The notes under the pieces were generated by a model. That model searched no databases. It was not told the DNA's origin and saw nothing but the letters and a program-made list of their open reading frames with translations. A stretch of 36,872 nucleotides of DNA from Gemmatimonadota bacterium. GTDB taxonomy: Bacteria > Latescibacterota > UBA2968. The DNA lies in the NCBI GenBank assembly GCA_009838845.1, contig VXRD01000135.1:1-36872 (forward strand), in the 5' to 3' direction. Position numbers and translations under genes: made by a program. Positions 915 to 32,738 of the stretch are shown here, in pieces; position 1 is the stretch's first letter; the number at the start of each line of letters is the position of its first letter.

Positions 915-2948
915 TCAGGTGAACAGCTCCCGTCTCTGCTGGGAGATGCGGAACTTCAGCTTCTTGCTCGGTTTCAGCGACGGGAACGGACTGAAACGGA
1001 GCTTGTGCTTGTACTTCGCCGGCGACACCTCAATCGTGAAGTAGTGCGCCAGCATCAGCAAGTTGGCCGCCAGGTGCAGCTCCATCCACCGGGTGCCGAG
1101 ACACTTATGCGTGCCCAGCCCGTACGGGGCGTACCCGGGGCTTCGGTGTTCATGGCGCGACGGCAGGTAGCGGTCGATGTCGAACTTGTAGGGGTCGGGA
1201 AAGACCTCGCTCATGTAATGCGTGGCGGTCATGGCGATGTGGATCCGTTCCCCCATGGGCAGCTCGTAGTCCTCGACCACACACGTATTCATCACGTTTC
1301 GAATGGACATGGAGACGATCGGGTACATGCGCATGCACTCCATGAGGAAGCGGTGGGTAACGTCAATGTTGGCGGGGGTGAAATCCTCTCTCTCGGGGTC
1401 TCCCTTGGCGAACAGGGCATCTGCTTCGGCCTGGATTCTGGCGTAGAGGTCGGGCTGCGACGCCATGGCGTAGACTACGAGGCTAAACGTATCGCCGAGG
1501 TACACGCTGGCAATCAAGGCCGCGGAAAAGGAGAACAGCAGGTTGGACTCCGGGAGAAACTGCGGGTCGCTCGCGTGCAGGCTGAGGTAATCGTCCACCA
1601 GGTCCCGTGGGCTGTCCGCCCTTTGGGCGGGGGTATGGATGTCCTGGACCCGCTGCATCAGTGTGTCCAAGACTTTCGCCCGGCGTCTCATGCCCGGGGT
1701 GTTCAGCGTGAATCTGGGCAGGAGCTTGGCGACGTGCACGCTGAGGGCCCGTTCCTTGTACGCCATCAGGTCGTCCATGAGGTCCTGGGTATCGACGCCG
1801 ATGAATAGTGGGGAGAGCTGGGCGTTCACCATCTCCCGGCACATGGACGTGGCGCGGTATGAGTCCCCAACCGTCAAGCTCGCCATGTACTTGCGCCCCC
1901 GATTGTAGAGCTGGTCCAGCTGTCCTCCCAGCCTCGCGGCAGAATAGGCGGGCGATAGGGACTTGCGAAGCCGGAAGTGATCGGCTCCGTCTAGGGCGGG
2001 CAGGACGCCGGACGCGCCGTAGACCTTCTCGAAGTCGCTGAAGTAGTCCCTGGCTCTCAGGTACATGCGCCCGCGCTTGTGCACCCAGCGGTTTGTCTCG
2101 AGTCCGGCCAGGAAGATCATGGGCTTCGAGAAGGGAGGGCGGATCTGGAACACCGGACCGTACTCCTCCGCAAGGTTCCCGAAGAGCGCGTTCAGGTTGC
2201 CGTCTCGACTATGCGGGTTCAGCAGCAGCTTGGGCAGCGAAACCGTCGGAATCTTCCTGGCAAGGGCAGGACGTCGAAGGGCTGGGCCGGCGAGGTTCTG
2301 AGAGACCGCAGAGGCGAGGGAGCGGCCGATCAGGTCCATCTTGCAGATGAACTCGATGCGCTCCTCCGCCTCGTCGTCGAGCTGGAATATGAAACGAAAG
2401 ACGTCGCAGGTATTGACGAGGCAGATAATGATGACATCTCTCGGATCGGGAATCTCGTCGGTGAAGATGACCCTGCTGATCCGCGTTTTTATGAACTGGC
2501 CTGCAGTGCCCTCTTCCGACTTGCTGGACAGTTCTCCACGCCAGACGGTAGGAGCCAGTGTCCAGAATTCACCGTCGTGATATTCCAGGATCTTCAGGTC
2601 AACCAGGCGGTCCAGAACCGAATCAATGATCGATTCCGCACGGGGAGCGAGCCGTTCGATCCAGTACTGGGCGTTCCGTTGAACAGATTCGGCTGCGATT
2701 TCTTTCAGAATGGAGTCTAGAGCAGGTCTCCCCGTTTCTGTCTCGTCCACGAGTAACAGGGATTCCATGTCCGTGTCGATGCGCGATCTGAGTGAAAGCT
2801 CCGCGAGCACGGCACCGACCACGGCGCAGTTCAAATGCCAGCCGGGGACCTGGTGAAAGTAGCCAGTCTCCTCGTTGAGGAGCATCAGGATGAGCTCTTC
2901 GGTGAGACTTAGCGATTGGGTCGTCAAACCCTCGGTAGTATTAGCCAT
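915..2948 (-). CDS. GPP34 (GOLPH3-like) domain fused to cytochrome P450
   Basis: This 677-residue protein has two recognisable parts. Residues about 15-225 start with LTEELILMLLNEETG and look like the GPP34/GOLPH3 family, which in eukaryotes binds phosphatidylinositol-4-phosphate at the Golgi; its bacterial role is unclear. Residues about 235-677 are a cytochrome P450. They hold a C-helix HFRLRK stretch, an I-helix GDT at 485-487, an ExxR pair at E537/R540, and a heme loop PYGLGTHKCLG with the thiolate Cys616. The usual Phe and Arg of the heme loop are Tyr609 and His614. No ferredoxin or reductase domain is present, so external electron partners are needed. The ATG has an AAGGAGG site 8 bases upstream. 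The next gene is an SMT-type methyltransferase, which suggests oxidation and methylation of the same sterol or terpenoid. I cannot assign a CYP family; CYP51 is not clearly supported. Confidence 0.9.
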   Translation of the reverse strand: MANTTEGLTTQSLSLTEELILMLLNEETGYFHQVPGWHLNCAVVGAVLAELSLRSRIDTDMESLLLVDETETGRPALDSILKEIAAESVQRNAQYWIERLAPRAESIIDSVLDRLVDLKILEYHDGEFWTLAPTVWRGELSSKSEEGTAGQFIKTRISRVIFTDEIPDPRDVIIICLVNTCDVFRFIFQLDDEAEERIEFICKMDLIGRSLASAVSQNLAGPALRRPALARKIPTVSLPKLLLNPHSRDGNLNALFGNLAEEYGPVFQIRPPFSKPMIFLAGLETNRWVHKRGRMYLRARDYFSDFEKVYGASGVLPALDGADHFRLRKSLSPAYSAARLGGQLDQLYNRGRKYMASLTVGDSYRATSMCREMVNAQLSPLFIGVDTQDLMDDLMAYKERALSVHVAKLLPRFTLNTPGMRRRAKVLDTLMQRVQDIHTPAQRADSPRDLVDDYLSLHASDPQFLPESNLLFSFSAALIASVYLGDTFSLVVYAMASQPDLYARIQAEADALFAKGDPEREDFTPANIDVTHRFLMECMRMYPIVSMSIRNVMNTCVVEDYELPMGERIHIAMTATHYMSEVFPDPYKFDIDRYLPSRHEHRSPGYAPYGLGTHKCLGTRWMELHLAANLLMLAHYFTIEVSPAKYKHKLRFSPFPSLKPSKKLKFRISQQRRELFT

Positions 2949-3122: not shown

Positions 3123-6100
3123 CTATCTCGTATTACTGCGCAGAGAAATCAGACGCAGATGGATGGTGTAAAGTGCGGGAACGATCATCATAAGTATGGC
3201 AGTGGTAATGAGAATGCCGAAACCGAGAGACGCGGCAAAGGGGATCAGGAACTGGGCTTGGATGGCACGTTCCAGAATAAGGGGAGTGAAGCCGAGGAAC
3301 GTAGTCACGGAAGTGAGCATAATTGGGCGAAATCGCCCTTTTGCGCCCTCTATGATTGCAGTTTGCGCCGGCATGCCTTCCTCGAGTTCCTGATTGATGA
3401 AATCGATCATGACCAGGGAATCGTTCACGACCACCCCACTCAGGCCGAAGATACCCATGAAAGATACGGCACTCAGGGCTACTCCCAGGACCCAGTGACC
3501 CAGGATCACTCCGATGAACCCGAAGGGGATGACGGCCATGATGATGAACGGCTTTGTATAGGATCGGAGGGGGATGGCGAGCAGCGCGAAGATCAGGAGC
3601 ATGGCAATCGCAAATCCGCGATACAGCGCATCCAGGGATTCGAGCTGCTGTTGTTGTTCCCCTCCGAAGCTGTATGTCAGGTCCGGGTGCAGGGCGGTCA
3701 GATTCGCGAGGATCGAATTGGCCAGGATGTCGTTGGCTTCGTCGCCTGAAATCACCGAAGCATCCACGTCCGCAGTGACCGTGACGACGCGCTGGCCGTC
3801 CTTCCGTCGAATGGCTGGCGGCGACATGCCCGAGTGCAGCGAGGCCACACTGATAACCGGGACCTCGGCACCACTCGGAGTACGGAGCAGGTACCCCTCG
3901 ACATCGGTGATGGATTTTCGTTCACCGGAGGGCAGGCGCACATAGACCCGGACCTCTTCCCGGTCGCGCTGCACCCGAACGGCCTCTGTGCCGAAGAACG
4001 CCGCCCGTGCCTGCCCGGCCAGGTCGTGGAGTGTGATACCGAGGGTTCGCGCTTCCGGCCGCAGCTCCAGTTGAACCTCCGGGATGCCCGGGGAGTGGTC
4101 CGAACGTATGTCATAGACGCCTCCCACTCCACGGAGACCATCGACCACGGAGTCTGCAATCCGGGCAAGGCGCTCCGGGTCCGGATGCGACAACACGGCC
4201 TCCACCGGGTTGCCCAAGTCAAAGACCTCGCCGCTGAAGGTGATGCCGCGTACGTAGGGCAGCACACCCACCTCCTCCCGCCATGCCTGCACGACCTCTC
4301 CGGTGGAGATTTCTCTCTGTTGGGCGCCCAGGAGTTTGAACTCAATGGTGGCGATGTTGGCTTGCGGATTGAGGGTCGGCTCCGGATTGAGTCCGCCCCC
4401 GAGTCTCGAGCCCTGTCCGACGGTCACCGTTACGCCGGTCAGCAGCGGTGGCGCATCCCCGGGCCGGCCGCGCGAGAGTCGTTCGATGACCCGGTGGCCT
4501 GCGGCCTCCAGTTCCTGCGCCACTTCGTACGTCCTCGGAGCGGTCGCCCCATCGGGCATCTCCAGGACGACCGTCGCGATATCCCCCTCCACGTCAGCGG
4601 CCAGCGTGGTAGGAACGATCCCCGCGGGCAACAGGGAGATGCTCAGCACGAGCATTCCCACAGCCCCCGACATCGTCACCGCGGGCTGGTCGGTGGCGAA
4701 CTGCAGGGCCCGATCCAGCGGGCCTTGGACGAACCTGTTCAGCAGCGCGTCAACGCGCCCCTGGAGCCGCGCGAAGAACCGGTCGAAGGCATTGGCCGGC
4801 ACCCACTCCGGGCCGTGCAGGTGGGACAGGTGGTTGGGCAGCACGAACAGCGATTCGACCAGGGAAACCAGCAGCATGGCGATCATGATGATCGGCAGGG
4901 CCCGCCACACCTCACCGACGCCGCCGGGAATGAACAGCAACGGGACGAAGGCCACCACCGACGTCAGAACTGCGAACGTCAACGGCACCTTGATCCGCCG
5001 TACGCCGCGGATCGCGGCCGTGACCCCGGGTGTTCCCCGCTTGCGTTCGTAGTGGATGTACTCGGCTACGACGATGGCATCGTCGACGATGATTCCTATG
5101 GCGAGGACAAAGGAGAACAGGCTGATGGTGTTGATCGCCACGTCGAATGCCATCATGATGGCGAGGGCCCCGATTCCCGAAACGGCGAGGCCCACGGCGA
5201 CCCAAAGCGCGAGCCGGATTTCGAGAAACAGGCTGAGTGCGATCAGCACCAGCAACAGGCCCAGGATCCCGTTCTTGAGGAGAAGATCGGCGCGTTCCTC
5301 ATAGACCTGGGATTCGTCATTCCACATGGTGACGCCCACACCGTCCGGCAGGGAAGGGATCACTTCGTTTGCCAGGTGCTGTCGGACGGTCGTGGCGACA
5401 TCCATCACTTGCTCACCATCGGCGCGGTAGATCTCCACGAATACCCCGGGATGGTTCTGGTGCCGGATGATCAGGTCGGCTTCCTGAAAACCGTCGCGAA
5501 CCTCGGCGATATCTCCAAGGCGCAGGACCGTGCCGTCACGACCGCTGAGAAGGAGGATCTCCTCGAAGTCCTGTTGGTCGTAGTTCTGGCCGAGGGTGCG
5601 GACCCGCACCTGGGATTCCCGGGTATTGATACTGCCGGCAGATAAGTCCAGGGAACTGCGACGAATGGTGTTGGCTATGTCGGTGAGTGTGAGTCCGAGT
5701 GCTCTTAGCCGATGAAGCGGTACCTCGATAGAGATCTCGTATTTCCGAATACCACTGACTTCGACCTGGGACACGGAGGGAAGTGTTGTGAGTTCATCTT
5801 CGATCTGGTACGCCAATTCTTTCAGCGAGCGCTCAGGTACATCGCCATATACAATGAGCCGCATCATGCTCATGCGGTTGGTCATCTCCCTGAAACTGGG
5901 ACGATCGGCACCGGCCGGGAAAGACTGTATGCGATTGACCGCAGACTCGATATCGTTCAGCGCCTGGACCATGTCCGTACCGAAATCCATTTGAATCCGT
6001 ACGGATGCCATACCCGGGGCCGATACGGACTTGACCGCCTTCACGTCATCCACCCCGCTGACCTGGTCTTCGATCTTGACGACGATCGACTCCTCGATCT

Positions 6101-6305
6101 CCTCCGGTGTGGCGCCGGGATAGGCCATCGACACTTCGATATGGTAGAAAGGGGTGGTCGGCCACGCTTCCCGGTCGAGTCCGGTCAGCGACACCAGCCC
6201 GGCGGCGATAATAGCCCACATCAATAGATTGGCGGCTATACTGTTACCAGCCATATAAGCTATGGGACCACGCTGTTCCCGTGCGGAACCATCTTCCCGA
6301 TTCAT
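3123..6305 (-). CDS. RND-family efflux pump, inner-membrane permease
   Basis: This is a proton-driven inner-membrane pump of the AcrB/CusA class that would export drugs, lipids or other small molecules. It has 1060 residues, close to the family norm. A single membrane helix (AANLLMWAIIAAGLV) is followed by a large periplasmic domain and a membrane helix block. The proton-relay motif VDDAIVV lies in the TM4 region, and the second half repeats the layout with GVVVNDSLVMIDF in the TM10 region. Its ATG overlaps the stop of the adaptor gene by four bases (ATGA), so the two are translated together. No outer-membrane channel gene follows, so a TolC-like partner must be encoded elsewhere. Substrate is not predictable from sequence. 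The stretch is strongly GC-rich. Confidence 0.95.
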   Translation of the reverse strand: MNREDGSAREQRGPIAYMAGNSIAANLLMWAIIAAGLVSLTGLDREAWPTTPFYHIEVSMAYPGATPEEIEESIVVKIEDQVSGVDDVKAVKSVSAPGMASVRIQMDFGTDMVQALNDIESAVNRIQSFPAGADRPSFREMTNRMSMMRLIVYGDVPERSLKELAYQIEDELTTLPSVSQVEVSGIRKYEISIEVPLHRLRALGLTLTDIANTIRRSSLDLSAGSINTRESQVRVRTLGQNYDQQDFEEILLLSGRDGTVLRLGDIAEVRDGFQEADLIIRHQNHPGVFVEIYRADGEQVMDVATTVRQHLANEVIPSLPDGVGVTMWNDESQVYEERADLLLKNGILGLLLVLIALSLFLEIRLALWVAVGLAVSGIGALAIMMAFDVAINTISLFSFVLAIGIIVDDAIVVAEYIHYERKRGTPGVTAAIRGVRRIKVPLTFAVLTSVVAFVPLLFIPGGVGEVWRALPIIMIAMLLVSLVESLFVLPNHLSHLHGPEWVPANAFDRFFARLQGRVDALLNRFVQGPLDRALQFATDQPAVTMSGAVGMLVLSISLLPAGIVPTTLAADVEGDIATVVLEMPDGATAPRTYEVAQELEAAGHRVIERLSRGRPGDAPPLLTGVTVTVGQGSRLGGGLNPEPTLNPQANIATIEFKLLGAQQREISTGEVVQAWREEVGVLPYVRGITFSGEVFDLGNPVEAVLSHPDPERLARIADSVVDGLRGVGGVYDIRSDHSPGIPEVQLELRPEARTLGITLHDLAGQARAAFFGTEAVRVQRDREEVRVYVRLPSGERKSITDVEGYLLRTPSGAEVPVISVASLHSGMSPPAIRRKDGQRVVTVTADVDASVISGDEANDILANSILANLTALHPDLTYSFGGEQQQQLESLDALYRGFAIAMLLIFALLAIPLRSYTKPFIIMAVIPFGFIGVILGHWVLGVALSAVSFMGIFGLSGVVVNDSLVMIDFINQELEEGMPAQTAIIEGAKGRFRPIMLTSVTTFLGFTPLILERAIQAQFLIPFAASLGFGILITTAILMMIVPALYTIHLRLISLRSNTR

Positions 6306-7498
6306 GGGGCACCTCCGATCCGCACCACCATGCCTTCAGTAGCGATCTGAATCCCGCCTATGACGACCGCCTGGCTGGCTTTCAGCGTGCCGGTTACGAA
6401 CACCTTATCATCGGAACGCTGAAGGACGCGCACCGGGACGATGGTCAATAGTGTGTCATCGCGCACTGCCCAGACCTCGTTGCCCGGTCTGAGTGCTGAT
6501 CGCCGCAGGATGAAGTACTGGTCTGGGATGATTCCCTCAATTCGCACTTCTGCGAATTTGCCCACGAGAAGGGGCGGGCCAGGATCTGCGCCTGCCCCTT
6601 CGACTGGGGTGCCGCTTGTAAAAGGATTCGGGACGCGTACGATGACGTTGATGGTGCGCGTCTGTTCGTCCAGGGATGCCTCTGCTCGATCTACATAGCC
6701 CTCCCAGGCATAGCTCCCGTCGCCGTATTCAGCTATGACACGAGCCTTGACCTGCCTATCTCCGTCGCCCGCTTCCAGCCTCCAAAGGCCGGGAATAAGG
6801 GCCGCATTGGCATCGGAGAGGGGAACTACCACCTCTACTGCGTCGGTCGCGTAAAGTCGCCCCACGCTCTGACCGGCTACCACGAACTGCCCCACATCTA
6901 TCGATTCTGTCTGCACGACGCCTCTGAAAGGCGCGCGGACTTTTGTGCGTGCCAAAGCCAACTCGGCATCGGCGAGCACAGCACTATCTCTGGCCACCGA
7001 GGCGCGGGCTGCCTCGAGTTGAGGCTCCCACAGCGCAAGGGGATTGGCTTTGGCTATATCCGTTTGGTCACGTCTGAACTGCGCGTACTCAGCGCGTGCG
7101 ATCTGGGCTTCTTCATTCGCCCGGAGGAGTGCGACATGCTGCGCGGCCACGTTGGCGCGGGCTTGCTGAACTCTGTTGCGGTAGTCGGCGTCATCAATGC
7201 GGAAGAGTATCTGCCCTTTTCGGACTCGTCCGCCACTCTGAAAGGCCGGATCTACCCAAACAACCTTACCATTGATTTCGGCAGCGACATCTATCTTTGC
7301 AACAGGTCGAACCGTCCCGGCCCCGTACACGGGAATTGCACCGGTGCCGACCACCGCGGAAGCCGTGACTGCGAATGGTGCCCGGGAAGTAAGAGGTCGG
7401 ATTTCTGGCTCGGGTCTCAGCCAGACCATAAGGTAGGCAACAATCGTGGATATGAGAAGGATGGCACTGGCCAGGAGTAAGCTTTTTCCTCGGTTCAT
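6302..7498 (-). CDS. RND efflux periplasmic adaptor (membrane fusion protein)
   Basis: A 398-residue HlyD/AcrA-type adaptor that would link the inner-membrane pump encoded directly downstream to an outer-membrane channel. It starts with an N-terminal anchor helix (LLLASAILLISTIVAYLMVW). A lipoyl/barrel-sandwich half-motif follows (around IDVAAEINGKVVWV and VRKGQILFRID), then an alpha-helical hairpin rich in Ala, Gln and Arg, then the second lipoyl half (KVRAPFRGVVQTESIDVGQFV). A beta-barrel and membrane-proximal domain complete it. The first ATG has only a weak AGAG-type ribosome site. The gene is the first of a two-gene operon and overlaps the pump gene by four bases. No dedicated regulator gene is seen beside it. 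Confidence 0.93.
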   Translation of the reverse strand: MNRGKSLLLASAILLISTIVAYLMVWLRPEPEIRPLTSRAPFAVTASAVVGTGAIPVYGAGTVRPVAKIDVAAEINGKVVWVDPAFQSGGRVRKGQILFRIDDADYRNRVQQARANVAAQHVALLRANEEAQIARAEYAQFRRDQTDIAKANPLALWEPQLEAARASVARDSAVLADAELALARTKVRAPFRGVVQTESIDVGQFVVAGQSVGRLYATDAVEVVVPLSDANAALIPGLWRLEAGDGDRQVKARVIAEYGDGSYAWEGYVDRAEASLDEQTRTINVIVRVPNPFTSGTPVEGAGADPGPPLLVGKFAEVRIEGIIPDQYFILRRSALRPGNEVWAVRDDTLLTIVPVRVLQRSDDKVFVTGTLKASQAVVIGGIQIATEGMVVRIGGAP

Positions 7499-24550: not shown

Positions 24551-27268
24551 CTAAAACATAAAACCAGCGCGCAGATATACGCCCGTCAGGTCATCGCCTT
24601 TTACGATTGCCGCGCTAAAGGTCTGCTGGCGCTTGAGAAAAGACAGCCAGATTCCACCTCCGATACTGGTGTGCCATTTATCGGCATTGTCCGGATCTTT
24701 GTCATAAATTACCCGGCCGGCATCAGCTATACCGAACAATCCGAATTCTCCCGATACCAGCAGCTTGATTTTTGTCAGGACCAGTCGCAGTTCGGAATTT
24801 CCATACAGCGCAGTCTCTCCAGCGAACCTGTTTTTCCGGAAACCGCGCAAATTGCCGCTGGATATGCCACTACCGACAAAACCGGATCCACCCAGAAAGG
24901 CACTTTCGTGGAAGGGAAAGGTTCCCCATACCTTCTTGCCTCCTGCTCTTAAGGCAAGGGTGGGGGTAGTCGGAATAGGGGCTGTCAGGTAAGTACTGGC
25001 TGCCCCATCTATACTGCCAAAGGTCGATTCTACATCCCAGACGCCCGGATAGATGTCTCCGGCAACCCTGACCCTGATCCCCTGAGTGGGATACCCCAAA
25101 CTGTTGCGCGTGTCGTACGCGACTTCACCCAGTGCGCCTACCTGACCGAAGGAATCTGTACCGTAAAGTGGTTGATCGAGCGAACCGATATATTTTTCCC
25201 GATTGGAACTGAGTGGTGTGTTTGAATACTTGATAATCGGCCCAAAGTCAATGGTTAATTTCGAGCGGAGCGATCCCATACCAACATGAGGCATATCTCC
25301 TTTATGATCTCCCGCTCGAAACTCGAGGGCAGGTGCGAAAACGAAATGTCTTTGTTCCACCTTATAGAAGGAAGATGGACGCAGAATTTCCGTTTTGTTA
25401 CCGAATCCATTGAACCTGATTGTCTGGAACCCGGAGTACTTTAAGTAGATTCTCGCGTCGAAGTCGCGCATGAATTCGCGAAAGTTTCCGGTATAGGAGG
25501 CAAAAGGCTTGATACCCTTGAGATCATTGTCTTTCGCCAGCCCGATCTTGAAAAAATGTTGCGAAGAGAAAGGGTCTTTTCGATACCCGAAATGCTGACG
25601 ATGGTAGGTCGCCCCCAAGAATACATCCATATCCGGGTTTACCCTGATAATCGGAGCAGTAGCAGCCTGCCCGCCCCAGTCCAGTGCATACCTTGCGCGG
25701 AGAAGCCGGGCGGGAGGTCGCTTGTAGGGTCGTTCGTCGATTTTCGCGCCCTTGCCTTTGGCGAACTGATTTTTTCCACGATAATCATAAAACCGGGTTT
25801 TTGATGCACCAGACTGGGATGAGTTTGTGAGCGCGTCATCCCCACCGCCACCATCAATGCGAACGACAATCTGTCCCTTTGTCCCCGATATTTCCGCGTG
25901 GTCATCTCCGCCCCGGAGATATATTCGGACTTCCCGGGTTTCCTGAGGGTGGAAAGTTCTTTGGAAATAGGGTGTCTTCCTTTCTCCTCCAGTACCTTCT
26001 ATCAGACCGATACGGACTGCGAGATCACCGTTCGGCAGGTGTTCACACTGGGCGTATTCGTCCTTATCGGTTGCCTGGATTTCGACCTGGCGGGTAATCA
26101 ATTCATAGTATCTGCTGGCAAATTCAGGCAATGCGTCTCGCCTCGATTTGAGGGCTTGGGTAAGCGTTTCCCCAATCATTTTGTAATACGGTGGTGGAAG
26201 TCTCCGCACGGCATTCTCGATAACCTGGTCGGGCAGGTCCTTTCGAAACGCTGTTACTACCGAATCCCACGCGGTCTTATTGAGTTCGGACAGAAACTCG
26301 CGGTCCATCTCCCAACCCGTGGTCGATAGACCCACCAGGCTTGGATATTTGTCTCCGAACGTGATTTGTCTGGGGAGCCTTTTGCGCGCCATTGCCATGG
26401 CAAACCCCTTGAAGCCGATAAAAGCCTGGTCGCGATCTTCGGGTATTGTAAGCCATGTATAACAATCGCCATCGGGGAATTGCGCCCATCTCCACTGGCC
26501 GTAATGCCGGTCCTTGTCGCCGATGAAAAGATCCATCAGTTTCGCCTTTAGATAGGCGCGGGCATCGACGCGGTTGCAAGGACTTTCTTCAAGGTGTTCC
26601 CACAGCCTCTCCGTTCCGCTGATCCTCCGGGAACCCGCAAAGCCGGGCGTATCGTCCGGCCCTTCAGACGGGTGTTCTTGTAGCGTTCCTATAAGGCCGG
26701 CAAACTCTTCGCGGTACTCTCCCAGCCCTGGATCATCCGGAATGACTACGAGTGTGTGCTTGGAATGGAGGATACCAGTGGCTTCCATCAGCGGATCAGC
26801 CACGAGTGCCCCTGTTGGTAGAAGCGCGCTGATCAAGTCCTGGAGGACGTCATCTACGATCGTATCCTTGAGTTCGTCCCATATTCTTTTGGTGGGATCT
26901 TTATCCAGGGAGCGGACCGTATAGCGGCGGCCGTCTTCCCCTGTAAAGTGAAGCGAGATAGACTGCCCGAATCCGCCGGTGCGAAGCGGTGTCAAGCCAC
27001 CTCCTACGCTGTTGAGGTCGAGGACTGAAACCTCGATAGGAGTGGTCCAGAGGTCCCGGTTATTGCTGCCGTAGAACCAGCGTTTGAACCCGCTGGCCCG
27101 GAATCTTTCTCCTGGAATCACCATGTGGGTCTTAGCACCTTGCGGAGGGATAGAGCGGTGAATCCTGTATCCTGGTGGCGGTGAATCCTCCTCAGATGTG
27201 GATTCTGCCGGAAAAGAAAAAGCGAACACCAGCAAGAGTAAAATGGCGTTCCATCTGGAAAATATCAT
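24551..27268 (-). CDS. Exported kinase-like domain fused to outer-membrane beta-barrel
   Basis: This 905-residue protein begins with a signal peptide (about 1-22). Residues about 110-300 resemble an atypical kinase fold. YTVRSLDKDP (116-125) has the layout of a nucleotide-lysine strand, followed by a helix (VDDVLQDLISALLPTGAL). GDKDRHYGQWRW (250-261) is catalytic-loop-like, with D253. IPEDRDQAF (275-283) is DFG-like, with D278 and D280. A middle beta-rich region (about 430-540) holds GGDDH and GGGGDD turns. The last 350 residues or so are a BamA/TamA-type barrel with LRGFRKNRF and a terminal Phe. An AAAGGA element precedes the ATG. Related proteins elsewhere are usually annotated only as BamA/TamA-family barrels. 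Kinase activity is inferred and untested; the usual catalytic-loop Asn is Gln258. Confidence 0.75.
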   Translation of the reverse strand: MIFSRWNAILLLLVFAFSFPAESTSEEDSPPPGYRIHRSIPPQGAKTHMVIPGERFRASGFKRWFYGSNNRDLWTTPIEVSVLDLNSVGGGLTPLRTGGFGQSISLHFTGEDGRRYTVRSLDKDPTKRIWDELKDTIVDDVLQDLISALLPTGALVADPLMEATGILHSKHTLVVIPDDPGLGEYREEFAGLIGTLQEHPSEGPDDTPGFAGSRRISGTERLWEHLEESPCNRVDARAYLKAKLMDLFIGDKDRHYGQWRWAQFPDGDCYTWLTIPEDRDQAFIGFKGFAMAMARKRLPRQITFGDKYPSLVGLSTTGWEMDREFLSELNKTAWDSVVTAFRKDLPDQVIENAVRRLPPPYYKMIGETLTQALKSRRDALPEFASRYYELITRQVEIQATDKDEYAQCEHLPNGDLAVRIGLIEGTGGERKTPYFQRTFHPQETREVRIYLRGGDDHAEISGTKGQIVVRIDGGGGDDALTNSSQSGASKTRFYDYRGKNQFAKGKGAKIDERPYKRPPARLLRARYALDWGGQAATAPIIRVNPDMDVFLGATYHRQHFGYRKDPFSSQHFFKIGLAKDNDLKGIKPFASYTGNFREFMRDFDARIYLKYSGFQTIRFNGFGNKTEILRPSSFYKVEQRHFVFAPALEFRAGDHKGDMPHVGMGSLRSKLTIDFGPIIKYSNTPLSSNREKYIGSLDQPLYGTDSFGQVGALGEVAYDTRNSLGYPTQGIRVRVAGDIYPGVWDVESTFGSIDGAASTYLTAPIPTTPTLALRAGGKKVWGTFPFHESAFLGGSGFVGSGISSGNLRGFRKNRFAGETALYGNSELRLVLTKIKLLVSGEFGLFGIADAGRVIYDKDPDNADKWHTSIGGGIWLSFLKRQQTFSAAIVKGDDLTGVYLRAGFMF

Positions 27269-27323
27269 GTTTGTCCTTTCGTTTCAAGGTGATTTGTATA
27301 ACCTGCAGTTGGGCAGATATGCA

Positions 27324-29564
27324 TCAAAACGCAAATCCGACTGAGGTATAAATCCGGATATCCTTTTCTTCTGTACTCACAATATCAACGCGAATGGGAC
27401 CTAAAAATGTTGTGCTGATATAACCACCAATACCAAAACCGTGGATACGGGTATTGGGCTGATCCGGATTGGAAGACATATTGTACAGGCCGCCCTGATA
27501 GAAAATTCCAACAGCACTGAGCGGTATGGATCCCCAAAATTTCATGTGGCTCCAAATAGAAATGCCCGCCGATACGAACCTGAAAGCCCGCAGTTTGTCG
27601 CGTTTGAGACCGACAACGCGCAATGCTGTGTTACTAAAGTGTCCTGCACCACCTAATGCGAAGTGTTCATAAATCGGTGCAGGCTGTGTCATATAGCCTC
27701 CGTGAGACCAGAGGCTCACACTCAATTGCGGATGGGGGCTGGTGAAGTACGCGAGTTGCGTTTGCACCTGCTTATGTGAAAATGTCCGATGAACCCATTT
27801 TGCTTGCGTTTGAAAATAGATGCCGTGTCTTGTCAAAAACGCATCGTCTCGGGTGTCAATACCTGCAGATAGCCACAAGGCGGGCAGATCTTTAGACGCA
27901 TTGCCTATTGAACTGTCCGCATCGCGAATGCGGACATGCTCGACTTGATACCCCACTTTGAAACCTCCCCAACTGTGGAACAAAACCTGCATGCCCAATC
28001 GCGCGCGAAAACGCTTCTCGTTATATGTGTCCTGGTGTTGCCCATTTTGAAAATACAACCGATCTTGATTCCAACCCTGAATCTCCCCGAAGAAACCCAG
28101 GCGCCTGGATGAGCGAAAAATTAAATCCATTTCAGCAAGCTTCAAATTGCCCAACAGGCCGCGAAAATAAAACTCTGCTACGGGGCCATAAGCATTTTGA
28201 TGTGCAAACTCGGTCAGTGCCGCAACCCCAAAATCATTGTCGTAATGAAGTCCTATTTTCAACTCACTGGGGGGGTTTTCAAGTACCTGAAAAACCAGTT
28301 CGGTATAGTCTTCATGGTAGATAACCTCGTAATCTACCGTTTGAAATAATCCGGTCGCATAGAATCGGCCAGATTCGTTTTCCAGTTTCCGAAACGATAT
28401 CGGCTTATTGACAAACTTTTCCAACCGCGATGTAAATACCTCTTGTGAATAGCGCTCTAAACCCTCAATCCGAACCCGGTCAATTACAATATCCGATGGT
28501 ATATCTACCCAGGTTCTGAAATCAAAATCATCTGGCAATATCGACGGTCTCGATTTTTCGACACGCTTTGAAATTCCGAGCGTTTGCAGAGCCTTCCAGA
28601 TCGCATCCAGATGTTTTTCGGCTTCTTTTTCACCAATTGGGATCAAGGTATATGACAGATTAAAATCGCCTCCGTCAAATTTTTTTAAATCGGGCATGAT
28701 CAGCACATGGGCGAGTTTTCGATTTGCGATTTTTTTTTCTTCAATTCGAAAACTAACAGCCTGATCAATGACGTCGATAATATCTTCAACTTCGTGCTTT
28801 TGAGTGCGCAAAGGTGTGGCACAATCCACGGCAATAACTAAATCAGCCCCGGCGTCTAATGCGACATCCACAGGCAAGTTATTGACAATGCCGCCATCTA
28901 CGAGATGGGTTTGTTCTGTACTTATCGGCGCAAACACCCCGGGAACAGAAATACTCGCTCTGATTGCCGTGCCGAGCGAGCCATTTTTAAGCACGACCTG
29001 TTCGCCAGATAAAATATCTGTTGCTATTGCGCGGAAAGGCGTTGGCAGCCGATCAAAATCGTTTCGCGCCCGATAAATTGCGCCAAGGGTCAATTGATTG
29101 AGAAAATGCTGAATTTTTTGTCCGGCAAAAACCCCATAAGGTAATTTCAGGTTCAACTTATCGAGGCGCAATGCAAGCATCTGGCGATCAGCTATTGGTT
29201 TGCGATTCAAATTCGACAGACGACGGTTGGGGTGATTATTGGTTATTTCCCACCAATCTGTTCCTACAATAATGCGTTCGACATTATCAACAGAATATCC
29301 GGCAGCGTACAGTCCTCCCACCAGAGCGCCATAACTTACGCCCACGATCAAATCAATGGGTATGCCTTCGCGCTCGAGCACGCGCAACACGCCGATATGT
29401 GCCCCGCCACGCGCGCCTCCCCCACTGAGCACCAGTGCGACTCGGGGCTTCTGTTTTGCAAAAGCAGGAAGCGTGATAGACAGGGCAAAACCGAAACACA
29501 ACAAAAAAACAAATAGGCTTTGAACTATGCCGCATTTGATTGCGTATAACCTTTTGCCTGTCAT
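27324..29564 (-). CDS. Patatin-like phospholipase with POTRA and outer-membrane barrel (type Vd autotransporter-like)
   Basis: This 746-residue protein has a signal peptide ending AFA (about residue 36). The patatin domain holds the oxyanion loop GGGARG (48-53). The nucleophile elbow is GVSYG with Ser77, and the catalytic Asp is D223 in DGG, forming the Ser-Asp dyad. A POTRA-like region lies near 350-430 (IDRVRIEGLERYSQEVF), then a barrel of about 300 residues ending in VGFAF. This is the PlpD/FplA architecture, in which the lipase is delivered to the surface. I chose the ATG at 29564 because it starts the signal peptide; earlier codons overlap the preceding gene by 53 bases. It lies 28 bases after the kinase-like gene. 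The Omp85 barrel encoded in the same block may help to insert it. Confidence 0.88.
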   Translation of the reverse strand: MTGKRLYAIKCGIVQSLFVFLLCFGFALSITLPAFAKQKPRVALVLSGGGARGGAHIGVLRVLEREGIPIDLIVGVSYGALVGGLYAAGYSVDNVERIIVGTDWWEITNNHPNRRLSNLNRKPIADRQMLALRLDKLNLKLPYGVFAGQKIQHFLNQLTLGAIYRARNDFDRLPTPFRAIATDILSGEQVVLKNGSLGTAIRASISVPGVFAPISTEQTHLVDGGIVNNLPVDVALDAGADLVIAVDCATPLRTQKHEVEDIIDVIDQAVSFRIEEKKIANRKLAHVLIMPDLKKFDGGDFNLSYTLIPIGEKEAEKHLDAIWKALQTLGISKRVEKSRPSILPDDFDFRTWVDIPSDIVIDRVRIEGLERYSQEVFTSRLEKFVNKPISFRKLENESGRFYATGLFQTVDYEVIYHEDYTELVFQVLENPPSELKIGLHYDNDFGVAALTEFAHQNAYGPVAEFYFRGLLGNLKLAEMDLIFRSSRRLGFFGEIQGWNQDRLYFQNGQHQDTYNEKRFRARLGMQVLFHSWGGFKVGYQVEHVRIRDADSSIGNASKDLPALWLSAGIDTRDDAFLTRHGIYFQTQAKWVHRTFSHKQVQTQLAYFTSPHPQLSVSLWSHGGYMTQPAPIYEHFALGGAGHFSNTALRVVGLKRDKLRAFRFVSAGISIWSHMKFWGSIPLSAVGIFYQGGLYNMSSNPDQPNTRIHGFGIGGYISTTFLGPIRVDIVSTEEKDIRIYTSVGFAF

Positions 29565-29592
29565 CTGATTCCCGACTTTGAAAGAATTGAAA

Positions 29593-31272
29593 CTACTCCT
29601 GTCGATCAACCCGTACAATCTGATATAGCCCGACATTCCATACAAAAAAATAAACCCGAACGTATTTATCTGCCCATCCAGACCTCACGGTCCGAATCTC
29701 TATCCCGTAATATTGTCCATCCGGCAAGTCGCGTGGTATGGGTATGTGTCCTGACGTATCGAGTTGACGCACAGCACCCTGCGCCTTTCCATCGCGACTC
29801 AAAAATTGATAAAAATACCGGGTCTCTGCTTCAGTAGCCAGATTTCCCACAATCGCCAGATCTTCAAAATGCAATCCTCGTCTGTCAATCCAAAAGCGAT
29901 CCAGCGGATTTATACGTCGAAACCAGTAATCGCCCACCTTATCCCGGCGTGCAATCAAAAGTCGAATGAGTCTCTCTTCAGCCTTCTTGTCGCTCAAATG
30001 CCCTGTCTTCACAATAGCTGCCAAATCCGCATCGCTAAACGCCATTGCGATTTTTGCCCCCCAGTACCCATCGCGATTTGTACACCGCTGAAAAGCCGGA
30101 TTGGGATAATTGGTAACCCACCGCCTGGGCGAAAATACATCGCTCTCCAAATAACCAATTGATGGAAAATGTATGGGTTTTGCATCTTCCCACGCCTTTC
30201 GATACAGCCCCAGCCCCAAAACAGATGGGACAATATAGCGAAAATCGACAAAATACTCATTTCCTGACTTAGGCGTGTGAGGCCGCACCGAACGACTACC
30301 CAAAGTCGCGTCCATATCGATCAAATAGTGTTTGATATATTGACGTCCCTGTTCATCAGTCACAAACATATTCAGGGTGTTGGCCGCACGTCGATCTACA
30401 TCATTGATCCACGAAGAGATCGCTCGCAACCCCCGTAACTCCCTTCGATGCTGGTGTTTCACGCGATCATTGGGGTCGTCTTTCCGCCGACTGTGAAAAT
30501 CAAAAACACCGAGCGGAATACCCGTTAATCTCTTGCTTGCCAGGCATCGGATATACCCGTTGGCTTGTTTCTCAATAGAAGACAGTACATTTTGCAAGTC
30601 TGCATCTGTCATGTCCTTGTGTCTTCCCTCATCATCAGATACCTCAGCCTCAGGGCCAATGGTAAGCCATTCTGCGCGAAAAAAAACAACGGAATTTTGC
30701 GGCACATGATAGCCCGCAGCATACAGAATTTTTGTCGATACAACCTCGGCAGTTGTCGCCAACTCCTCATAACCTTTTGCGTCAAACTTTAAAAAATAAA
30801 TATCTCCTTTTGCGTCCCGAATTGTAAGCTCAGGCACCTGGCCCTCTAATTTTCCCGATATAATCTCCCATGAACCGCTCGTATCTGGATGCGCGTGCCC
30901 CGGTCCTTTGGCCAACGCCGCAGCATCCATCCGCACAAGAAAATGCCGATTCGTGTACCAAGATGAATTGGGTACTTCATCCAGCACATTGACATTATCT
31001 GCCTGACGAGATGGCGCAATATTCAGAATATTCCCAACCCGCCGCGCACTCCGTCCCAAATCCAGTTTCTTAGTCATTGGATAAACAAAAGAGTGATCGA
31101 CCATGTCCCATATCAGATTCCTTTTAATTACTTTGGGTTGAACAATACTGCGATTGTCGGGATCAAACCACTTGATTGGCGCAGTCGATAAATGGTGGTC
31201 GATCGCTTCAGCCTCGACGGCAACACAGGCCATAAGCACCCATACCCACAATTTATTTAAATCCTTTTTCAT
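29593..31272 (-). CDS. Exported protein with atypical-kinase-like (HipA/CotH/Fam20-type) motifs
   Basis: This 559-residue protein has a signal peptide (about 1-23, ending AEA). It shows the order expected of an atypical kinase fold. A lysine strand IYFLKFDAKG (K162) precedes a helix carrying E176 in TTAEVVSTKIL. A catalytic-loop-like WINDVDRRAANTL has D293 and N298 five apart. A DFG-like YLIDMDATLG has D319 and D321. No outer-membrane barrel is present, so it is probably periplasmic or a surface lipid-associated protein. The ATG at 31272 has an AGGGAAG element about 10 bases upstream. It follows the Omp85-type barrel gene by 23 bases and precedes the patatin-barrel gene by 28. I do not recognise a named family. 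If active, it would need nucleotide outside the cytoplasm, as proposed for CotH. Confidence 0.7.
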   Translation of the reverse strand: MKKDLNKLWVWVLMACVAVEAEAIDHHLSTAPIKWFDPDNRSIVQPKVIKRNLIWDMVDHSFVYPMTKKLDLGRSARRVGNILNIAPSRQADNVNVLDEVPNSSWYTNRHFLVRMDAAALAKGPGHAHPDTSGSWEIISGKLEGQVPELTIRDAKGDIYFLKFDAKGYEELATTAEVVSTKILYAAGYHVPQNSVVFFRAEWLTIGPEAEVSDDEGRHKDMTDADLQNVLSSIEKQANGYIRCLASKRLTGIPLGVFDFHSRRKDDPNDRVKHQHRRELRGLRAISSWINDVDRRAANTLNMFVTDEQGRQYIKHYLIDMDATLGSRSVRPHTPKSGNEYFVDFRYIVPSVLGLGLYRKAWEDAKPIHFPSIGYLESDVFSPRRWVTNYPNPAFQRCTNRDGYWGAKIAMAFSDADLAAIVKTGHLSDKKAEERLIRLLIARRDKVGDYWFRRINPLDRFWIDRRGLHFEDLAIVGNLATEAETRYFYQFLSRDGKAQGAVRQLDTSGHIPIPRDLPDGQYYGIEIRTVRSGWADKYVRVYFFVWNVGLYQIVRVDRQE

Positions 31273-31295
31273 CAAGAATGTCTTCCCTGCGTCTT

Positions 31296-32735
31296 CTAAA
31301 ATGCCTGGCTCATCGTAAATCCGATGAGGAAACGATTGGCAGTACTATGCCCAATTTTGATTTTGCCGAGCAAACCGACCTCCGTGCGAAATGCAATGCC
31401 GCCACCCCACGAAGAATGGAACCCTCCCCACCTCAAATCTCCAAAATGGTCAAAAATTTGCGCTTCATCCCAAAACAAAAACACATTCGAATAATCCCAT
31501 ATTGGATATCGATACTCCACATTAAATTGCAATGCTCCCTGTCCGCGAAAATAACCGCGCGTGTATCCGCGTGCCGATTCATTACCGCCCAATTGAATCA
31601 ACTCGGTATAAGGAACAAATCCATCCCCCACTGACCGCACTTTATCCACCCGTGCGTGCAGAACCAGAATGCGGTTCTTCCAGAACAGCGTGATATAACG
31701 GGCAGCTTCGGCGCGTATCTTGTAGAACGCAATGCGATCAGGGCCTGTCACCCAGTCGCCTTCTAAAGTGATAAATCCACCGCGTTCGGGATATCCAATA
31801 TCTCGCGCAAAATAAAACTGATCTCCAAATTGTGTAACTATCCTGCCTGGAAAACGATAATTGGATGGATGAGAAAGCTGGCGAACTGGTTTTTTATAAT
31901 CGCGGTCATCATATATTACCCGAAGCCCAACGCGATAAAATTTGAATTTTGTGCCCAACCCCTTAACCAGACGCGCCTGTGGTGATGATCCCGGGTCGGA
32001 AAGTGGTTGCAATCCACCCAATACAGGCATAAAATCGCGCTGCGAAAATCCAATCCTGCCCACCATTTTAAACTGCGGCACTATAGACGCGGTCTCAGCC
32101 GTTTTCAAACGCCATTCAACAGAGGTTTCAACATCAACTTTTTTGAGTTCAAAAAGCCTCGACTCGTCGTTATCTATTGCGCCGTTTATATTGGCATTTC
32201 TATTTTTTGTTTGCAAATATCCACCCTGAATTTTCCAAATAAGCCCCGTGTCCAATAGATTGGGGTCAATATACAGACCTTCGCAAAATTGCCCCTGCTC
32301 GCCCGAATAGATATAGTGTGCAGTCAATGCGTTTTTGCGCCCCAGGATATTGGTATGGAAAAGACGCGCTCCAATCCCTGTGCCCGTTTCTCCTCCCAAT
32401 TGCCCGTGCGGAAAAAGACCAAATGTACCCGATTTATTGGTGAAAAATTTATAGTAACGAATCCACAGTTTTGCGTACTCTACTTGAATAGCGAATTTCT
32501 CCAAAGGATAGACCATCGTCAGCAAGATATACCGGGGGGATCGCAAGAGATATTTCACTTTTGAAGTTTTTGTAACATAGACATCCGTACTGTCGGTAAC
32601 TCTGGCTTGCGATATATCGTAGGGATCGTGCTTGTAAAGACTGTCAGTGTACGTCACCGAAGTTGAGGTATGTGCGTCTTTCGGGGGGCAAAACAAAAAG
32701 ACACATAAAGGAAGAGAAAGAAGAAATGAGCGCAT
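31296..32735 (-). CDS. Omp85/BamA-TamA-type outer-membrane beta-barrel protein
   Basis: This 479-residue protein starts with a signal peptide (SFLLSLPLCVFLF). After a short N-terminal segment with no clear POTRA domains, the remainder is a transmembrane barrel. It contains the Omp85 signature region GGNESARGYTRGYFRGQGA, where RGY corresponds to the conserved L6-loop motif. It ends in SQAF, with the terminal Phe typical of a barrel insertion signal. Typical BamA is about 800 residues, so this is a POTRA-poor form. It is the first gene of the six-gene minus-strand block. I use the ATG at 32735, directly after a TTG. It could insert or secrete the other barrel proteins of the block, or be a surface antigen; this is inference. 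Confidence 0.85.
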   Translation of the reverse strand: MRSFLLSLPLCVFLFCPPKDAHTSTSVTYTDSLYKHDPYDISQARVTDSTDVYVTKTSKVKYLLRSPRYILLTMVYPLEKFAIQVEYAKLWIRYYKFFTNKSGTFGLFPHGQLGGETGTGIGARLFHTNILGRKNALTAHYIYSGEQGQFCEGLYIDPNLLDTGLIWKIQGGYLQTKNRNANINGAIDNDESRLFELKKVDVETSVEWRLKTAETASIVPQFKMVGRIGFSQRDFMPVLGGLQPLSDPGSSPQARLVKGLGTKFKFYRVGLRVIYDDRDYKKPVRQLSHPSNYRFPGRIVTQFGDQFYFARDIGYPERGGFITLEGDWVTGPDRIAFYKIRAEAARYITLFWKNRILVLHARVDKVRSVGDGFVPYTELIQLGGNESARGYTRGYFRGQGALQFNVEYRYPIWDYSNVFLFWDEAQIFDHFGDLRWGGFHSSWGGGIAFRTEVGLLGKIKIGHSTANRFLIGFTMSQAF

Positions 32736-32738
32736 CAA

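Follow-up and report, generated by a model that had tools for sequence, protein, structure and literature searches.

A GPP34–cytochrome P450 fusion, probably a sterol-tailoring enzyme, in a widespread candidate sterol-modification gene set of bacterial symbionts

Bacterial sterol loci and the fusion gene

Several sterol systems have been described in bacterial symbionts of sponges. Symbionts of Ircinia carry ERG24–CYP51–ERG7 clusters, or CSGs (Kelly 2022, PMC9531527), which, according to the accessible portions of that article, span 10 phyla of sponge symbionts, show evidence of horizontal transfer and are often flanked by a sterol C24-methyltransferase (SMT) gene. Excerpts of a second study describe the msb locus of a gammaproteobacterial symbiont of Melophlus, which encodes a bifunctional squalene epoxidase/cyclase (a fusion type known as MsbE), a CYP51-like protein, a sterol reductase, a Rieske protein and an SMT (Mohanty 2020, PMC7074536). 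SMTs of sponge symbionts methylate sterols in vitro, and the origin of sponge sterols bears on the standing of 24-isopropylcholestane as possibly the oldest animal biomarker (Brown 2023, PMC10070321; partial text).

Here we describe a gene fusion that shares features with each of these systems. It lies in a window of 36,872 nucleotides (the whole stretch of DNA analysed) from Gemmatimonadota bacterium (GTDB lineage Latescibacterota, UBA2968; assembly GCA_009838845.1, contig VXRD01000135.1). Its relatives likewise carry ten phylum labels, and genes of the CSG type adjoin the GPP34–P450 gene at three loci (L017, L029 and L047); however, the Ircinia clusters contain a cyclase and a CYP51 that stands alone, and the accessible text on them contains neither ‘Golgi’ nor ‘Rieske’ (PMC9531527). 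Unlike those clusters, most GPP34–P450 loci contain no CSG and pair the gene with a KshA-type Rieske gene and exporter genes, and at the locus in the window ERG24, CYP51 and ERG7 were not found together. The gene types listed above for msb are its points of likeness to our loci, whereas ‘P450’ and ‘Golgi’ are absent from the accessible text of that study and its Rieske protein is described as being of the C4-demethylation type (PMC7074536). The methyltransferases characterized in vitro are SMT homologues from sponge-associated bacteria, as here, but the accessible text mentions neither ‘P450’ nor ‘Rieske’ (PMC10070321). One scaffold of that study, JGIcombinedJ30088_10000835, bears two SMT genes; L017, probably from the same sponge, likewise has two SMT-type genes. 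At the level of titles and abstract openings we found no published description of a GPP34–P450 fusion, and the accessible parts of PMC12993501, PMC10469786 and PMC9868349 hold nothing on one.

Domains and active site of the fusion protein

The fusion gene (positions 915–2948, minus strand) encodes 677 amino acids in a single frame with an ATG start and no internal stop. The preliminary description had read it as a GPP34 domain forming the N terminus of a P450, and the domain search agreed: Pfam GPP34 matched residues 15–216 (2301–2906, minus strand; E 1.2e-29), close to the proposed 15–225, and p450 matched with E 1.1e-34, both far above their gathering scores. The p450 HMM alignment was limited to residues 422–664; profile and fold comparisons gave a complete P450 fold over residues 229–677 (918–2264, minus strand; AlphaFold model, VIA-align). 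A whole-protein AlphaFold model built on an alignment of 45 sequences reached a pLDDT of 82.8 and a pTM of 0.81, and a separate model of residues 1–230 (pLDDT 80.6) matched only GOLPH3 and Vps74 significantly (8 chains; best E 7e-9, GOLPH3 9qpq). The N-terminal half thus belongs to the GPP34/GOLPH3 family by domain and predicted fold, at about 18% identity to GOLPH3/Vps74 and, unlike those proteins, joined to an enzyme; fold, heme-Cys loop and ExxR place the C-terminal half in the cytochrome P450 superfamily. An assembly error joining two genes, which the preliminary description had raised, was rejected because the fusion recurs across 80 kept relatives, with both domains in all 45 members scanned (45 of the 81 available).

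Methylococcus CYP51-ferredoxin, also a fused bacterial sterol P450, was the best match of the P450 half in the PDB profile comparison. It is only about 20% identical, differs in the I-helix and carries its ferredoxin at the C terminus, whereas GPP34 is N-terminal. By VIA-align, in which rows within 1 Z were treated as tied, the P450 fold scored Z 34.7 over 413 residues against CYP46A1 (cholesterol 24-hydroxylase, in the top rows) and 34.1 against CYP51-fx. Taxadiene hydroxylase, CYP120, BM3 and CYP184 scored nearly as high as the sterol P450s, and the ranking singles out no sterol P450 among these near-equal matches. Membership of the CYP51 family requires, by convention, more than 40% identity; a CYP51 identity of the fusion was rejected at 20–21% (fold alignments) and a score of 66 bits, where the CYP51 encoded at L029 reaches 348 bits to Methylococcus CYP51.

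The catalytic residues named in the preliminary description were located where claimed: Cys616 is kept by all 77 relatives that have this column, and E537 and R540 of the ExxR motif in 78 of 78. Its suggestion of an altered heme loop proved overstated. The loop, YGLGTHKCLG (residues 609–618; 1095–1124, minus strand), does contain Tyr609 and His614, the former standing where P450s usually have Phe (Tyr in 71 of 77 relatives, Phe in 6) and the latter present in 77 of 77; however, His614 also occurs in an ordinary P450 of the same genome (FGRGIHYCLG), and the loop is near-normal. The striking change in the active site is instead in the I-helix, which the preliminary description did not mention. 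Alignment with canonical P450s placed the motif A-S-V-Y-L-G-D (residues 480–486; 1491–1511, minus strand) against A-G-x-D/E-T with one residue deleted and no Thr at the aligned position, so that the classical acid–alcohol pair of (A/G)GxD/ET is replaced by A-S-V-(gap)-Y483-L-G485-D486. Tyr483, Gly485 and Asp486 were invariant in 78 of 78 relatives, and residue 487 was mostly Ala (43 of 78). Some P450s without the pair are active; lacking it here, ordinary hydroxylation cannot be assumed. A sister GPP34–P450 subfamily (L101–L108; 36–39% identity) has the heme loop FG(L/M/V)GxHRC and reads AGLDT, VGLDT or AGLHT in the I-helix. Because this subfamily keeps the Thr motif, the rebuilt I-helix is apparently a derived feature of the sterol-cluster subfamily. 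Further divergent copies (L109 and a second copy at L078) read AVDT and ALDP. Genes for an acyltransferase, PhyH, a sulfotransferase, an SDR or an amidohydrolase neighbour the sister subfamily, of which some genomes hold several copies.

Distribution, hosts and gene neighbourhood

The preliminary description had called for a survey of the same fusion elsewhere, and a single scan across 84,980 species genomes yielded 103 confirmed relatives. Eighty of these were kept (L003–L082), nearly all full length and 55–98% identical, and all 80 are MAGs by record title. Their NCBI phylum labels were Chloroflexota (26), Gemmatimonadota (18), Pseudomonadota (9), Latescibacterota (8), Actinomycetota (5), Nitrospirota (4), Binatota (3) and Verrucomicrobiota, Myxococcota and Bdellovibrionota (1 each), with 4 unplaced. 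Three chromosome-titled records from three phyla (OX638353, OX638375 and OX638377) carry the gene. In the phylum set of the window, 26 of 64 genomes gave some match, counting stand-alone GPP34 genes and divergent fusions. A quick tree was built on 80 rows, leaving out three fragments below 600 amino acids and adding two extra copies; it required 22 phylum-label changes against a minimum of 9, or 21 without the divergent L078 copy. Horizontal spread is likely, and contaminated bins are possible: L045 and L046 are near-identical, yet one is an alphaproteobacterial and the other a Chloroflexota bin. Carriage by phages or plasmids was rejected, as the viral contigs and phages searched held no relative and the plasmid matches were merely partial (80% coverage in 0 of 193 records). 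Second copies lie in tandem or near-tandem at L058, L065 and L074/L110, the last with an RND operon flanked by the two copies. Stand-alone GPP34 genes are common in related genomes; the genome of the window has one (C104:42465–43061; L001), with no sterol genes nearby.

Hosts were read from MAG name prefixes, as the record titles name none. Prefixes of sponge studies occur on 43 of the 80 kept MAGs: RHO, IRC, COS and APA (33 of 80) appear, by prefix match, to fit the sponge species in the accessible part of PMC8163846, and jk18x (10 of 80) denotes Ircinia MAGs in the accessible part of PMC9531527. The other prefixes (SB06, MP, Plut, p16x, OX/CAT, CO36 and 277c/287ce; 37 of 80) leave the host unproven. 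Among them, we take MP bins to come from the sponge Aplysina and Plut bins from the coral Porites lutea. No free-living record was recognized among the 80 relatives, and the best explanation is that the carriers are uncultured, largely invertebrate-associated bacteria, many of them known from sponges.

Directly downstream of the fusion, the window opens with an SMT homologue of 303 amino acids cut by the contig end (2–910, minus strand), whose likely ATG lies near 874, about 40 nt past the fusion stop. The Sterol_MT_C end of this gene is on contig C47, the last 55 bases of which equal the first 55 bases of the window exactly. SMT activity is predicted from its Methyltransf_11 and Sterol_MT_C domains (Sterol_MT_C E 1.2e-15 in this genome and 1.7e-13 in L019) and from the motif YAIESTCHAP, which we take to be significant for SMT identity. 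C47 also encodes a Rieske/KshA_C oxygenase (KshA_C E 8e-24) with 3-ketosteroid 9α-hydroxylase (KshA) as its best PDB match. These Sterol_MT_C and KshA_C matches, both on C47, are the only ones in the 5.75-Mb genome; the SMT, Rieske and P450 identities are assigned by homology. Upstream of the fusion lie genes for an AcrB-type RND permease (3123–6305, minus strand; ACR_tran E 1.8e-160) and a HlyD-type periplasmic adaptor (6302–7498, minus strand), which overlap by 4 nt. Elsewhere in the window, at 24551–32738 on the minus strand, three Omp85-type proteins are encoded close together, one of them fused to a patatin-like phospholipase.

The same kinds of neighbour recurred across the 80 loci, counting hits of 30% or more identity to a probe. 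KshA-type Rieske homologues were found at 58 loci, SMT homologues at 48 and a flavin oxidoreductase at 37; transporters comprised AcrB (26), HlyD (16), OEP (13) and two types of MMPL (26 and 12), which match the sterol-sensing domain. ERG24-type (10), CYP51 (4) and squalene epoxidase (SE)–cyclase (3) genes were less frequent. SMT and/or Rieske genes were present at 69 of 80 loci, and any of SMT, Rieske, ERG24, SE–cyclase and CYP51 at 71 of 80, or at 50 of the 53 loci whose flanks reach 5 kb or more in each direction; the 80-locus count partly reflects shared ancestry within clades. No such enzyme was seen at nine loci, six of them short-flanked and three (L049, L063 and L064) not. In controls from the same phylum set, the same probes found none at 20 stand-alone GPP34 loci (307 kb) or nine divergent GPP34–P450 loci (117 kb), against 1,211 kb searched for the 80 loci. 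At L055, L059, L060 and L075 the second type of MMPL lies beside the fusion and adjoins LolA-like or unassigned genes in an arrangement resembling a lipid-export module.

Sterol synthesis genes and possible roles of the fusion

At three Nitrospirota loci (L017, L029 and L047) the GPP34–P450 gene belongs to a locus for de novo sterol synthesis. A DCTAE protein of 1,135–1,220 amino acids is encoded no more than about 10 kb away, and at L029 this protein is a squalene epoxidase fused to a cyclase (L029:4523–7927, minus strand), the MsbE type of fusion. A cyclase together with CYP51 was found near the GPP34–P450 gene only at these 3 of 80 loci, and ERG24 also at L029 and L047; the genome of the window has one other P450, which is not CYP51-like. 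In 50 draft carrier genomes (that of the window and those of 49 of the 80 loci), nine contained a cyclase match in a frame of 1,138–1,413 amino acids, taken as SE–cyclase fusions after checks of three (L017, L029 and L047) and, for the other six, on frame length alone. Strong hopene-cyclase-type matches occurred in 18 of the 50, including seven of those nine; a strong PF13243 match was not by itself taken as a sterol cyclase, since the one at L113 lies in a hopanoid-type cluster. At E 0.001, 24 of the 50 genomes, including that of the window, gave no cyclase match.

Because the GPP34–P450 gene usually adjoins sterol-modifying genes, it probably helps symbionts to remodel sterols, and we favour as probable a sterol-tailoring P450 with a GOLPH3-fold N terminus, belonging to a sterol-modification gene set that is widespread among symbionts of about ten phyla. 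This set would comprise the GPP34–P450, an SMT and a KshA-type Rieske protein, often with a flavin oxidoreductase and RND or MMPL lipid transporters. What the P450 acts on and how, which way sterols are transported and what GPP34 does are inferred in the following scheme. Carriers without a squalene epoxidase/oxidosqualene cyclase would probably import sterols of the host or of neighbours; as no cyclase was found in most of the draft carrier genomes, that of the window included, such symbionts are predicted to modify sterols made by others. The Rieske protein would oxidize the ring system and the P450 probably the side chain, C24 methylation by the SMT would follow, and the sterols would be passed on through the RND/MMPL exporters. 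GPP34 is probably a module for attachment to the membrane surface or for docking of partners, through which the P450 would reach its insoluble substrate.

The preliminary description had proposed membrane or lipid-directed targeting of the P450, and its lipid-directed part is supported by the neighbouring genes (SMT, KshA-type Rieske oxygenase and sterol-sensing MMPL transporters) rather than by GPP34. Recruitment by GPP34 to phosphoinositide-bearing membranes, such as those of the host, would suit a fold that is clearly that of GOLPH3/Vps74, but is not supported, because three of the four pocket residues are lost. The PI4P pocket of GOLPH3, which we take to consist of W81, R90, R171 and R174, corresponds to W37, V44, E105 and I108 (the last two positions anchored by hand), and among 78 relatives the Trp is kept in 77 and the three arginines in none. 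The remaining Trp is not shared by stand-alone bacterial GPP34s, whose pocket residues differ again, and we regard a GOLPH3-type PI4P effector as very improbable. GOLPH3 docks Golgi enzymes; this GPP34 may likewise hold partner enzymes in place, or its ligands may be other lipids.

Two further readings concern the chemistry. The P450 and the Rieske protein could start the breakdown of host sterols for carbon: KshA, the best structural match of the Rieske protein, is best known from sterol degradation, and side-chain degradation is commonly opened by a P450. We consider this unlikely, as the SMT found at 48 loci builds rather than degrades sterols, exporters recur as neighbours and the Nitrospirota loci place the fusion among biosynthesis genes. 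The substrate might alternatively be another triterpenoid or membrane lipid (a hopanoid, carotenoid or sponge terpenoid), with sterol genes as mere frequent neighbours. The strong squalene-hopene-type cyclases in 18 of 50 carriers, the hopanoid-type cluster at the one such locus read (L113), a Planktothrix relative in a triterpene-type locus and the acyltransferase, PhyH and sulfotransferase genes beside divergent fusions all point this way; against it stand the complete lack of sterol genes at the control loci and the 24 carriers without any cyclase match, because of which a hopanoid P450 in particular is unlikely. On balance we give this alternative, too, a low probability.

Going beyond the favoured sterol-tailoring role, one may tentatively picture a horizontally circulating sterol-remodelling set, common to sponge and coral symbionts of about ten phyla, most of which cannot make sterols, in which the rebuilt I-helix lets the GPP34–P450 perform non-standard sterol chemistry; we find this conceivable but would not presume it. 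If true, symbionts lacking a sterol pathway would still influence which sterols their host animals contain, among them the C24-alkylated ones that serve as fossil biomarkers. The locus adds a conserved oxidizing enzyme beside the SMT and KshA-type Rieske protein in many symbiont phyla, and all three genes are short and directly testable. Should the sterol role hold, GPP34, known from Golgi sorting, would gain a context in bacterial lipid metabolism; P450 research would gain a family whose oxygen-activation helix has been rebuilt, next to a sister subfamily with the normal helix.

Among plasmids, p2 of Planktothrix agardhii yielded the best relative of the P450 half; the region around it (L100, 44826–57986) encodes one protein of the phytoene/squalene synthase family and one with prenyltransferase/squalene-oxidase repeats, together with several P450s and SDRs.
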